Shown here: positions 2,933 through 42,006 of the stretch, one piece after another
Layout: each line of letters starts with the position of its first letter
How positions within the stretch are numbered: position 1 is the stretch's first letter
From: Phragmitibacter flavus
Lineage (GTDB): Bacteria; Verrucomicrobiota; Verrucomicrobiia; Verrucomicrobiales; Verrucomicrobiaceae
Direction of reading: 5' to 3'
DNA: 64,000 bases
Assembly (NCBI RefSeq): GCF_005780165.1
Contig: NZ_VAUV01000018.1
Location: 1-64,000, forward strand
The notes under the pieces: generated by a model
The model's input: the letters and a program-made list of their open reading frames with translations, nothing else
What the model was told of the DNA's origin: nothing
The model's database searches: none
Made by a program: the position numbers and the translations under genes

Positions 2933-3976
2933 ATGCGCCCTCTGCTCCGACTCCTCATCTCGATGCTTCCCATCAGCGTCATGGCAAATCCTCCGCCCCA
3001 CTCCTGGCAATCGCTCCCGCCTATTCCTGACCCCATCGGCTTTGCCGCTCCCTTCGCCGGCACCCACAACAAAGTCCTCATCGTCGCGGGCGGTGCCAAC
3101 TTCCCAGAAAAATCTCCCTGGCAGGGCGGCACCAAAATCTGGCACGACCGCGCGTTCATCCTCGAAAAGCCCGACGCCCAATGGCGAACAGATTTTCACC
3201 TCCCTCGTCCCCTGGCTTACGGGGTCTCCATCAGCACTCCCCGAGGCATCGTCTGCATCGGTGGCAGCGATGATCAACAACACTTCCGCGACGTCTTCCT
3301 CCTTCAATGGCTAGACGGGAAACTTCTCACCCAACCCCTGCCGTCGCTTCCTCAAACCTGCGCCAACGCCTGCGGAGCCGCCATCGGCAATACCCTCTTC
3401 GTCGCCGGAGGCCAGACAACCCCCGCCTCCACATCCGCCCTTCACACCTTCTGGTCACTTGACCTCACCTCGCCCAATCCCACCTGGCAAACCCTCGAAC
3501 CCTGGCCCGGTCCCGCCCGCATCCTCGCCACCGCCGCCGCCCACGAGGGTTTCTTTTATCTCTTCAGCGGTGCCGACCTCACCCCCGGTCCCGATGGCAA
3601 AGCTCAACGCACCTGGCTGAATGATGCCTACCGTTATCACCCGGACCAAGGATGGAAAAAACTCTCCGCCCTCCCCCGGCCCGCCGTCGCCGCCCCATCT
3701 CCCGCACCGCTCCTCAACCCCACTTCGATTGCCGTCCTCGGCGGAGATGACGGAGCGCAACTCCATGTCGCCCCCACCGCGCACCAAGGTTTCCCCAAAA
3801 CACCCCTCGTCTACGACATCCCCACCAACCTCTGGCGCGAAGCCCCCGCCCTGCCTTTCTCCCTCGTCACCACCACGGTTGTCACCTGGCAAAACCTTTT
3901 CGTCATCCCCGGAGGCGAAGCCAAACCCGGCATCCGCTCCACCGAAGTCTGGTCCCTCCCCTTGTCACAGCCTTAA
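2933..3976 (+). CDS. kelch-repeat mutarotase, N-acetylneuraminate epimerase (NanM)-like
   Basis: A 347-residue exported beta-propeller. Residues 1-18 form a signal peptide (hydrophobic L-L-R-L-L-I-S-M-L, then A-N). Kelch blades follow, with typical G-G motifs (V-A-G-G-A-N-F-P, I-G-G-S-D-D, V-A-G-G-Q, L-G-G-D-D) and conserved W/Y positions. This resembles the YjhT/NanM family, which interconverts sialic acid anomers in the periplasm. The ATG at 2933 starts the signal peptide; an upstream ATG at 2900 would add 11 unlikely residues. The next gene, a lyase of the NanA family, starts 48 bases downstream, which supports a sugar-acid catabolic role. The exact sugar is an inference. Confidence 0.8.
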   Translation: MRPLLRLLISMLPISVMANPPPHSWQSLPPIPDPIGFAAPFAGTHNKVLIVAGGANFPEKSPWQGGTKIWHDRAFILEKPDAQWRTDFHLPRPLAYGVSISTPRGIVCIGGSDDQQHFRDVFLLQWLDGKLLTQPLPSLPQTCANACGAAIGNTLFVAGGQTTPASTSALHTFWSLDLTSPNPTWQTLEPWPGPARILATAAAHEGFFYLFSGADLTPGPDGKAQRTWLNDAYRYHPDQGWKKLSALPRPAVAAPSPAPLLNPTSIAVLGGDDGAQLHVAPTAHQGFPKTPLVYDIPTNLWREAPALPFSLVTTTVVTWQNLFVIPGGEAKPGIRSTEVWSLPLSQP

Positions 3977-37966: not shown

Positions 37967-39034
37967 ATGTCCCGAGACCAAAAGTCGGCAAGAGATCTAA
38001 AATTGCCACCTTGCCCGCTGCCCAGGCCGGGTGACGAGGTGATCTGGTATACGGACTCAGTTCCTCATCGCGGGAAGCTTGAGGGGCACGGAACGAAGGG
38101 GCGTCCGCACGTCAGAAGTGAGCTGCAACATTCCTTTGTATTAGATTCTTTCGATGTCGTTAGGTTACAAGATACTGCCCATCGTAGAGGACCAGCTTGG
38201 GAACATCTTCCAGATGGGGGTCGCATTTTTTGTGCAACTGCGTCAGAACAGCAATTGTTTGGCGTCTTGCTTGCTCGACCGGTCCCACCTGGCCCCAGAT
38301 ATGCCGAACTGATTACTGAAATTTGGTCCCGTGGATTTGAAATATTCGTGGTTGGCGGGACTGTTCGTGACGTTTTGGCGGGCAAAGAAACTCACGACGT
38401 TGATTTGGTCACCACCATGCCATTAAATAGCGCTTCACGCTTACTTAAGGCGATGTATCGTAGCGACCCCCAAATATCAGACAAAAATGGTTATGTAAGA
38501 CTCGGTGGAGTGCCAAGATTAGGGGATCCATTTATAGACCTGAAAATGTTTTCGCTTGCGGCCCCAGGAACCGAAAATGCAATCTTCGGTGCTGACTTTT
38601 GTAGTGACGTCGGACATCGTGACTTTTCTTGTAATGCGATATATTACGACCCAATTAACGCAGTGCTAATCGATCCATCAGGCAGAGGTATTGAGGACGC
38701 CAAAGAGAGCAGACTCTGCTTAGTCTGTGACCAAGCTTCAAGGCGCCCAAAGCAACGGGCACAAATCGTCATTCGTTTCCTAAAATTCAAAATGCGTGGA
38801 TTCGAAGCTACTGTTGAGACCATCGAAACAATAACGAAAGACTATCTTCCTGATCTTGCGGCTATGGATGGGAGCGAACGATTGCGCTATCTGAAGGCAC
38901 AAGTGATCAACAAATGTGCACCTGGCGATCGGCAAGCTAAACTTGAACAATTTCGCATATGTATGATTGAGTTTGGAGCTGAACGCGAATGGGTGAAGTT
39001 TTTCCAACCACTTGTAAAAGATATTCTTTCATGA
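37967..39034 (+). CDS. CCA-adding-enzyme-like nucleotidyltransferase, first gene of a NACHT cassette
   Basis: A 355-residue protein. Residues 20-70 look like a small beta-barrel (P-G-D-E-V-I-W...G-K-L-E-G). The class II tRNA nucleotidyltransferase head follows: V-V-G-G-T-V-R-D at 128-135, D-V-D at 144-146, a candidate third Asp at 191, motif B as H-R-D-F-S-C-N-A at 217-224, and a motif-C-like R-A-Q-I-V-I-R-F-L near 264-272. No E-D-x-x-R base-selection motif and no C-terminal tail are visible, so it is unlikely to be the housekeeping CCA enzyme. It overlaps the NACHT gene by four bases. Local base composition is AT-rich, unlike the flanks. Confidence 0.85.
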   Translation: MSRDQKSARDLKLPPCPLPRPGDEVIWYTDSVPHRGKLEGHGTKGRPHVRSELQHSFVLDSFDVVRLQDTAHRRGPAWEHLPDGGRIFCATASEQQLFGVLLARPVPPGPRYAELITEIWSRGFEIFVVGGTVRDVLAGKETHDVDLVTTMPLNSASRLLKAMYRSDPQISDKNGYVRLGGVPRLGDPFIDLKMFSLAAPGTENAIFGADFCSDVGHRDFSCNAIYYDPINAVLIDPSGRGIEDAKESRLCLVCDQASRRPKQRAQIVIRFLKFKMRGFEATVETIETITKDYLPDLAAMDGSERLRYLKAQVINKCAPGDRQAKLEQFRICMIEFGAEREWVKFFQPLVKDILS

Positions 39035-41061
39035 ACCTAGACTCTGCAATTCATTATTTTTGCAAGCCGGTTGTGAGGCACGCCGATAGGTTCGTTGAAT
39101 TGGATCCTCACGAAGACATCGGATTTGAGGTAACTCCGTTTGCGGAAATTGAACAGTATTTGAAGAGACATTTCACAACTACGACTGGCCCAGTGGAAAT
39201 TGCTGGCAGGAGTTACACTTTACCTGTCTTCGTCCCAAAAAATACAGACAAAATTTGCTATGTTTTAGTGGACGGCTCGGGTCTGCCAACAGAGGAGTCT
39301 CCGACCAAACAAACAGACACAGAGTGGATAACTGAATATTCTCATTGGATAGCTGAAAAGCTTTCGTTCTCGGAAGGATTGGCGAAAGATCAGGCAGCAT
39401 ACCTAGAGACCGAGTTTTTATCGCCGTCCCTATCTGAGGTGGACCCTTACACTCTTAGTTCGACGAGAAGCGTAACCTGGGAGTATGCGCTCTCAAGAAA
39501 AAGGTGTGTCCTATTGGGGGAGCCCGGAACTGGAAAGACAACTTTACTGAGGCGGTGGGCATTAAATTTTTGCAAGGACGTATCTAGAGGAGAGCAGCCA
39601 ACTTCGATACCTGTCTACTTTCAGCTTCGCGATTGGCAAGATGAGCATAGCGCTAGTCACGCTTTAAATCAGGCTTGTTTTGGTTCAGATGGTGGATCTG
39701 ACTCAAAAGCCACAATGCGATCACTCTGTCGCGCTGGCAGGGTAGTTCTCCTGCTCGATGGCTTAGATGAGGTTCCTGACTCGAAGCGTCAGGTGATCTC
39801 CGATATGATTTCCCGCCTTGCCAACGATTCCCCAATGATCGGAATTATTCTTTCTACCCGCACCGCCTCTTACAAAGGGGATTTTCAAGGGTTTAGTCAT
39901 TGTTTACTAAGGCCTTTCGAAGACTCACACATGCTAGAATGGAGTTACAAAAAGCTATATTCACATGACCGTTTAAGTTGGCATCGCTTTGTCAGACACC
40001 TGAATGAACTGCCTCAAATGAAGGATGCAGCAAGAAATCCGTTTTTGCTTGGATTGCTAGTGCATTTTTATCGCCAAAACTCAGTGCTTCCAAAAGATTC
40101 GGCAAACCTGTTATCTAGCTATGTTCGAGCCCTGTCAGGAGAATGGGATATGGTTCGAGGAATTAGCAGGTCAAGCGAATCTTGGGCGGCTCCTGGGAGA
40201 AAACTCTCTTCGCTTTGTCGGTTGGCATTTTGGCTGGTAGACTCAAATAGATCTGACTTTTCAACGGAAGAATTCTGCTCCTCCGAAATTAAATACGCTG
40301 AACGCGACATTTCACTTCACCTGCTCCCAGCTCTGGTGGAGCACACCGGCCTTTTACAGTGTGTAGACCATCATCGAAGAAGTTGGAAATTTTCGCATCG
40401 GACATTGATGGAGCTTTTCGCTGCGAACTACCTAGTTGAGCGTGCGGATGATGTTTCGAGTCTGTTTGTCAATCGTTGGGCGAACCCAACTTGGAGGAGT
40501 ATTTGGGTCTATGCTTGCGGTCTTGCTCAGGATGCTGGCCACCTAGTTCAGCTAATACTAAACGACAATCAAATAGCCGAGACACACAGGGCCTCTTTGC
40601 TGGCGAGAGCTTTTGCACAAAACCTAAATATGAGGGAGAGTGATATTGAAAAGGGTTGTGCTGTAATTATGAAGGCGGTGGACGATTTACTGCGTTCATT
40701 TAAGCTCGCACAATCCAGAGAACCGATTGCCAAGGATGTCTTGTGGTGTATCAAACTTAAACATAAGGAATCTCTTGCCAAGTGGGAGAATTTTAATCGC
40801 GAGGAAGCAATTGCTTTGTTGTGCGACGTATACGCAGGGCGTTCAGGCGTTTTGGGTAAATATGTCAGGAGTGTTCCAAGTGGATCTGAGTCTCTCGAAC
40901 TCGTCAAGTTCTTAGAGGGTTTGAGTCAAGAAGGTGATTTCAAAGTGAACGTTGTAGATGATGATGCGTCAGGCACTGGGCTTTTGATTATCTACATTTC
41001 CATTCCCGAGCATTCAACTGTCCAAAAAAGTGAATGGGCTTCGACCGACTGGGGAAAATGA
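39031..41061 (+). CDS. NACHT-type STAND NTPase
   Basis: A 676-residue protein. An N-terminal region of about 150 residues of unknown fold precedes Walker A G-E-P-G-T-G-K-T-T (163-171), Walker B V-V-L-L-L-D-G-L-D-E (238-247) with the extra acidic pair typical of NACHT ATPases, and a sensor-1-like S-T-R (275-277). A helical region follows (R-N-P-F-L-L-G-L-L). The C-terminal 250 residues contain no obvious TPR, WD40 or LRR repeats. Bacterial NACHT proteins include phage-defence sensors. ATG 39031 overlaps the upstream stop (ATGA). The effector might be the N-terminal region or the upstream nucleotidyltransferase. Confidence 0.88.
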   Translation: MNLDSAIHYFCKPVVRHADRFVELDPHEDIGFEVTPFAEIEQYLKRHFTTTTGPVEIAGRSYTLPVFVPKNTDKICYVLVDGSGLPTEESPTKQTDTEWITEYSHWIAEKLSFSEGLAKDQAAYLETEFLSPSLSEVDPYTLSSTRSVTWEYALSRKRCVLLGEPGTGKTTLLRRWALNFCKDVSRGEQPTSIPVYFQLRDWQDEHSASHALNQACFGSDGGSDSKATMRSLCRAGRVVLLLDGLDEVPDSKRQVISDMISRLANDSPMIGIILSTRTASYKGDFQGFSHCLLRPFEDSHMLEWSYKKLYSHDRLSWHRFVRHLNELPQMKDAARNPFLLGLLVHFYRQNSVLPKDSANLLSSYVRALSGEWDMVRGISRSSESWAAPGRKLSSLCRLAFWLVDSNRSDFSTEEFCSSEIKYAERDISLHLLPALVEHTGLLQCVDHHRRSWKFSHRTLMELFAANYLVERADDVSSLFVNRWANPTWRSIWVYACGLAQDAGHLVQLILNDNQIAETHRASLLARAFAQNLNMRESDIEKGCAVIMKAVDDLLRSFKLAQSREPIAKDVLWCIKLKHKESLAKWENFNREEAIALLCDVYAGRSGVLGKYVRSVPSGSESLELVKFLEGLSQEGDFKVNVVDDDASGTGLLIIYISIPEHSTVQKSEWASTDWGK

Positions 41062-41201: not shown

Positions 41202-42006
41202 ATGAACCCCACCCTCTGCATTCTCGGCGGCTGCAATGGAGCGGGGAAGACAACACTCGCGCGAGAATTGCTGCCGAGGCTGGGGTTGATGCGCTTTCTG
41301 AACGCGGACGAGGTAGCGCGAGGGCTTTCGCCGCTCGATCCTTCACTCAGCGCATTCAAAGCGGGTCGTCTTGTCCTGGAGGAAGCGCGTTCTATGATCA
41401 AGGCCAAGGCGAGCTTTGCTTTTGAGCCGGAAGCCTTGGGAAGGCTGTAGACAGACTGATCGGAGATCAGCCCGAAGGGCGGCGGACTGGGATGTCCGTC
41501 GTCAATCGACACTCAGCGGAAAAACCTATGTGGCGTTGATTCGAGATGCGAAAGAAAAGGGTTATCGCATCCTGTTACACTACATTGTCATCGGCTCTGC
41601 CACGCAGGCCGTCGATCGTGTGGCGTTGCGGGTGAAATTGGGAGGGCACAATGTGCCGAATGACGATGTGCACCGCCGCTTTGAACGTAGCCGCAGGCAC
41701 TTCATCGAAGCTTGCCTGCCACTTGCTGATGAATGGGGATTGTGGGATAATCAACAACCACCGCCAAAGCAGATCGCTGACAGCCAAACGTATACCCTCG
41801 ACCAACTGCTAGCCATGCTCAATTTCCCCAACCTCCAGGAAACGCCTCCCGCTGAAATGTCGGAAATGTCTAAGATCGAGCTCGAAGCCAGCCGCGTCGC
41901 AACAGAGAAGATGCTCGACTACTACAAGCGCATTGGCATCAAGGTGACGCCTCAGATGACGCTGGCTCCTGAAAAGCCGAAGCGGACGCGGCGTAAAGTT
42001 GGGTGA
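41202..42006 (+). pseudogene. zeta-toxin-like P-loop kinase interrupted by a 79-base insertion
   Basis: The 5' part (41202-41426) encodes I-L-G-G-C-N-G-A-G-K-T-T-L, N-A-D-E-V-A-R-G-L and S-F-A-F-E, as in COG4185/zeta-like kinases. The 3' part (from 41506, another frame) resumes exactly with S-T-L-S-G-K-T-Y and continues through G-Y-R-I-L-L-H-Y-I to a complete C-terminus. Only 41427-41505 separates the halves and it brings a stop and a +1 shift. The gene is therefore broken unless the segment is removed or bypassed. An ORF with a strong AAGGAG site starts at 41141 upstream and overlaps it; an antitoxin was not identified. Confidence 0.82.
41427..41505. repeat. 79-base insert of four consecutive hairpins
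   Basis: Four perfect short inverted repeats follow one another: AGCCTT-GGG-AAGGCT (41432-41446), CTGATC-GGA-GATCAG (41456-41470), GCCC-GAA-GGGC (41470-41480) and CGGAC-TGGGAT-GTCCG (41483-41498). The segment lies exactly between the F-E and S-T-L codons of the kinase. No target duplication is obvious. It resembles a small palindromic element. Confidence 0.7.

Follow-up and report, generated by a model that had tools for sequence, protein, structure and literature searches.

A miniature palindromic element splitting a zeta-toxin-like kinase gene of Phragmitibacter flavus belongs to a dispersed family in Verrucomicrobiota

Known structured inserts and the 79-nt element

Several described systems resemble the insert analysed here, a 79-nt palindromic sequence in a kinase gene of Phragmitibacter flavus. 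Non-autonomous elements of the IS200/IS605 type (palindrome-associated elements and miniature inverted-repeat transposable elements) have terminal hairpins, a short left target and a fixed right-end tetranucleotide, and they cause no target duplication; TCAA, the right end of our insert, is also that of IS608. Repetitive extragenic palindromes (REP), which are served by TnpA_REP enzymes (RAYT), are short dispersed repeats, and Rickettsia palindromic elements (RPE) keep the reading frame of the protein genes that they occupy and are read through. Class 3 HUH-Y1 genes are flanked by structures with a CnGA foot, and a high copy number has been reported for the class (PMC6006769). In the T4 gene 60 coding gap and the yeast mitochondrial bypass inserts, a structured insert separates two out-of-frame gene parts (PMC5009743). 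The stretch examined (hereafter, the window) comprises 64,000 nt of contig NZ_VAUV01000018.1, and the insert occupies 41427-41505, between Glu75 and Ser76 (codons 75/76) of a zeta-toxin-family kinase gene. Very probably the insert is a miniature, non-autonomous mobile element (IS200/IS605-, REP- or RPE-like), divergent within its family, whose arrival disrupted this accessory gene.

The element shares the above features with IS200/IS605-type elements, but it carries four hairpins within 79 nt and its family often lies inside genes. The family resembles REP in consisting of short palindromic dispersed repeats, in forming tandem arrays and in occurring in genomes with Y1 genes, whereas it is longer and has several hairpins and defined two-sided ends; a REP of the GTAG class was ruled out, the GT[AG]G foot being conserved neither in the four kinase copies described below nor in the family. 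The family start, CCGA, stands at the foot of the first hairpin and resembles the CnGA foot of the class 3 HUH-Y1 structures; the window copy has CCGG, and no class 3 HUH-Y1 enzyme or its motif was recognised among the typed Y1 proteins of the P. flavus genome. Members of the wider family are read through inside protein genes as RPE are, but their sequence is unrelated, and the kinase copies do not keep the frame and contain stops, so that RPE-like read-through does not apply to the window copy. From the T4 and yeast inserts, the element differs in being a member of a dispersed DNA family.

Precise insertion and membership of a dispersed family

Comparison with intact homologues placed the insertion exactly to the single base. 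With the N-terminal and C-terminal parts of the kinase (N-part and C-part) used as separate queries, intact relatives (e.g. L017, L019, L020 and L022) matched residues 1-75 of the N-part and 1-166 of the C-part with no gap separating the two, and the junction DNA of most of them was GA(A/G)-TC(C/G), giving IESTLSGKTY. An earlier note on this DNA, made from its letters alone, had proposed a precise insertion at these positions and an E-S-T-L junction expected for the family, and both proposals held. The boundaries in the window read GAG-CCGG...TCAA-TCG, with the NAR left flank and TCAA/GCAA right end of the family present. Because 79 = 3 × 26 + 1, the C-part lies in frame +1 relative to the N-part, whose open reading frame (41202-41450, 82 aa) ends at a TAG within the insert, in agreement with the frame shift noted earlier. 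Since the insert contains a stop and its length is not divisible by three, we conclude from the sequence that the split kinase gene would be disrupted.

BLASTN of the 79 bases, a check suggested in the earlier note, revealed a single copy in the P. flavus genome and, among 143 genomes, three long relatives with 89, 90 and 92% identity. The exact core pattern, searched in 84,980 species, returned only the same three copies, all in metagenome-assembled genomes (MAGs) of Verrucomicrobiaceae; a 387-genome sample of the order contained no additional full-length copy of this kinase subfamily, and the subfamily was not found in viral contigs. The subfamily sample is small, at four copies, and the relatives are mostly MAGs. 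Since the element occurs in three other genomes, sequencing error, which had been raised as an objection, is very unlikely to be the cause of the insert. The three other copies lie in the same kinase gene family at a different position, after Asp-Glu (or Asp-Ala) in FLNADE-IARG, which makes two sites in the kinase gene where the element occurs. At the corresponding site in the window (41310-41316), the sequence is GAG-GTA (Glu-Val), where relatives have Glu-Ile/Met/Leu; this could be the footprint of an earlier excision, with chance equally likely.

Searches with a relaxed core, AGACTG N3-14 CAGCCCGAAGGG, revealed approximately 44 occurrences in 23 of 96 relatives, compared with 0 matches for the reversed control, and the left-end pattern was present in 47 of the 96. 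The copies read as a common skeleton of NAR, CCGAGCGNAGCGAGAYAG, a hairpin, CCC N3 GGG, a variable hairpin and TCAA/GCAA. Among 60 extracted copies, the left flank was NAR in 57, and the right end was TCAA (43), GCAA (15) or, in tandem arrays, TCAG (2); the right end formed part of the extraction rule, and the left flank is thus the cleaner evidence. Family lengths ranged from 57 to 84 nt, with a peak at 57-63 nt among the extracted copies, 37 of which had a length divisible by three. The central hairpin covaried (24 cells with changes on both sides vs. 5.4 in shuffles, 0/500), and sliding the partners abolished the signal.

A covariance model (R1), built from 50 related elements with the kinase copies excluded, recognised the window copy with E = 5e-5 (77 kb searched) and the other three kinase copies at 2e-6 to 3e-4, all of these model E-values being rough. 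Thirteen strong copies were found by R1 in the whole P. flavus genome, which rules out the single-copy orphan that the one BLASTN copy might have indicated, and 20 of the 288 phylum genomes searched had matches at E <= 1e-5. Within the family the kinase copies are divergent, with longer hairpins 1 and 4. Precise insertion, occurrence at two positions in the gene family and membership of a dispersed family together support the earlier suggestion that a palindromic mobile element had inactivated the kinase. No description of the element family was found in the literature searched.

Many of the P. flavus copies (L205-L209, L212, L213 and L217) stand in a recurring context, AACCACA(G/A), element, ATGGACAC, which looks as if another dispersed repeat were their target. 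On the minus strand of L201 (approximately 529-717), three 63-nt element units occur in tandem, joined as TCAG-CCGAG.

Family copies are common between genes and also occur within them. In-frame copies were found at several different sites of type I restriction-modification HsdM genes (L062, L176, L184, L181, L210 and L061; L210, at G000 C17:68130, is in the P. flavus genome itself) and in a full-length ThiC gene, whereas a 62-nt copy in an IstB-like gene (L168; named from its sequence rather than by a profile) and the 79-nt copy in the zeta-like kinase are out of frame. The HsdM and ThiC copies are, by their sequences, read through in frame and add approximately 20 residues, and such in-frame copies account for unusual recurring peptides (PSGARQTAAGSPKGERGG...) among the phylum's predicted proteins. 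A family copy is also present in an HsdR-like gene (L082) and another in an apparent Y1 transposase gene (G123, L158, minus strand, approximately 246-306; WGHLFGGRY, as read from the sequence).

As to mobilisation, the elements, which are patchily distributed across Verrucomicrobiota, may be described as rows of short hairpins between a left target NAR and a right end TCAA/GCAA that insert precisely without target duplication. Most likely, a Y1/HUH enzyme of the IS200/IS605-TnpA_REP superfamily would cleave and join the folded single-stranded DNA, with the hairpins serving as its recognition structures, and a copy would in this way have landed in the accessory zeta-toxin-like kinase gene and disrupted it. 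We infer this mechanism from the precise insertion, lack of target duplication, terminal hairpins, fixed right end and short left target, which match the single-strand transposition logic of the IS200/IS605 and TnpA_REP enzymes (PMC6006769, PMC8266576). The P. flavus genome has 13 Y1 matches. On contig C3 (G000 C3:42500-47500), two element copies flank a RAYT-type transposase gene (338 aa), but both lie inside 272-nt direct repeats that are 93% identical (L219:886-1157 and 3582-3853), so that the link of this gene to the family is only a lead. The gene is adjoined by 19-nt tandem repeats.

Four observations weigh against the interpretation of the insert as a freely moving, gene-disrupting element. 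Its kinase subfamily has so far been found only in the zeta-like kinase gene, which is unexpected for an element that moves freely, and in the whole-genome search with R1 the window copy reached only E = 0.0039. Pairwise comparisons indicate that the C-part is under strong purifying selection (omega about 0.1); this and the divergence signals mostly measure time preceding the insertion. Finally, and as a further difference from IS200/IS605-type elements, an autonomous relative with the same ends and encoding TnpA was sought without success around 30 Y1 loci from ten genomes. The repeats flanking these loci are of other families, and a Y1 gene with the ends of the element was rejected there.

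Features of the insert and its host gene

The positions of the features are summarised in Table 1. The earlier note had described four perfect hairpins; hairpins 1-3 are perfect, whereas hairpin 4 is perfect over 5 bp and has a G-T pair in its full 9 bp stem. Hairpins 2 and 3 have base 41470 in common, hairpins are present close to both ends of the element, and hairpin 4 shows a compensatory change in the G030 copy. The total perfect stem of 17 bp (non-overlapping count) was equalled by 5 of 5000 dinucleotide shuffles. DNA folding gave z = -2.6 for the window copy and -4.3 to -5.9 for the other three kinase copies, and a 119-nt stretch (element plus flanks) folded as RNA was unremarkable (z = -0.9).

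Table 1. Features of the split kinase gene and its insert (window positions)
Feature	Positions	Strand	Details
Miniature palindromic element, 79 nt, CCGG to TCAA	41427..41505	+	Homologue comparison, other copies, covariance model
Left flank GAG, fits family rule NAR	41424..41426	+	NAR in 57/60 family copies
Right end TCAA	41502..41505	+	TCAA/GCAA in 58/60 family copies; end used in extraction rule
Hairpin 1, AGCCTT-GGG-AAGGCT	41432..41446	+	6 bp, loop GGG
Hairpin 2, CTGATC-GGA-GATCAG	41456..41470	+	6 bp, loop GGA; counterpart of covarying family hairpin
Hairpin 3, GCCC-GAA-GGGC	41470..41480	+	4 bp, loop GAA; family core CCCGAAGGG
Hairpin 4	41479..41502	+	CGGAC-TGGGAT-GTCCG, 5 bp perfect 41483-41498; 9 bp folded with G-T pair
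TAG stop closing N-part frame within element	41448..41450	+	
N-terminal part of zeta-toxin-like kinase, 75 codons, Walker A	41202..41426	+	AAA_33 match; homologues
Kinase C-terminal part, frame +1 to N-part	41506..42006	+	Homologues in 44/57 genomes

Intact homologues matched AAA_33 and Zeta_toxin PF06414 (31-36 bits; cut-off 22.3), and the kinase is thus predicted to be zeta-toxin-like. Divergence of the window copy was similar to that of intact genes; as a test of relaxed selection this is uninformative, since the insertion may be recent. The element was not the cause of a truncated kinase in G031. The gene 5' of the kinase (38989-41061) encodes a 690-aa NACHT-domain protein; NACHT also occurs in anti-phage proteins.

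Fate of the split gene and meaning of the family

The strongest alternative, which we nevertheless regard as unlikely, holds that the subfamily specialises on the zeta-like kinase gene, seeking out one site and entering it horizontally. Every one of the four known copies lies in this gene family, and three share one site despite diverged host genes. However, G101 is a mosaic when set against its relative G051: the two are alike ahead of the element, diverge from the element onwards until about C-part codon 57 and are then nearly identical. This pattern fits recombinational spread of one inserted allele, so that the three copies need not mean three insertions and an independent insertion in G101 at the common site is not required. 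The general family also enters HsdM repeatedly, so frequent sampling of horizontally mobile genes may be explanation enough, and only four copies are at hand.

Further alternatives suppose that the split gene still functions. The broadest, to which we give very little weight, holds that zeta-like kinase genes retain the subfamily because the split gene can work, the insert being cut from the message, passed over in translation or excised precisely as a reversible off-switch; mobile bypass elements would then have a counterpart in bacteria. Skipping at the RNA or translation level had been put forward speculatively in the earlier note, but our results lend it no support. In its ribosomal form, with translational bypassing as in T4 gene 60 and the yeast mitochondrial inserts, or a frameshift, the kinase would still be made, and this we consider barely credible even though the insert is structured and frame-shifting. 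Both kinase parts keep intact reading frames in the window, G030 and G101, which together with the low omega would suit it, as would the overlap of the N-part and C-part frames inside the element in the window and G030. The N-part frame, however, ends at a stop within the insert in all four copies, and the C-part frame through the insert, open in the window and G030, is closed in G101 and G073, the latter gene having decayed further. The frames through the insert are thus not conserved, no conserved decoding signal was seen among the four copies, and a conserved frameshift or readthrough was ruled out by G101 and G073. The take-off codon (GAG) also mismatches the triplet before resumption (CAA), and the HsdM and ThiC relatives are read through without any need for skipping. 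Where the host gene probably matters the frame seems to be kept, which speaks against any general capacity for skipping.

Removal of the element from the RNA as a minimal intron, which would restore an uninterrupted kinase message, is the least probable reading, with next to no chance of being correct: like homing introns, the element has precise ends and recurs within a single gene family, but family copies often lie between genes and also in frame within them, to our knowledge 79 nt is far below the size of known self-splicing introns, and the lack of any Rfam match up to E = 5 also ruled out a known RNA family.

Interpreted as a mobile element that interrupted an accessory gene, the insert changes from an isolated curiosity to part of a recognisable miniature mobile element family with defined ends in Verrucomicrobiota. 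Members of this family repeatedly enter genes of horizontally moving systems, namely type I restriction-modification systems, transposases and zeta-like kinases; the HsdM and ThiC copies add residues in frame, whereas the kinase copies would break the gene.
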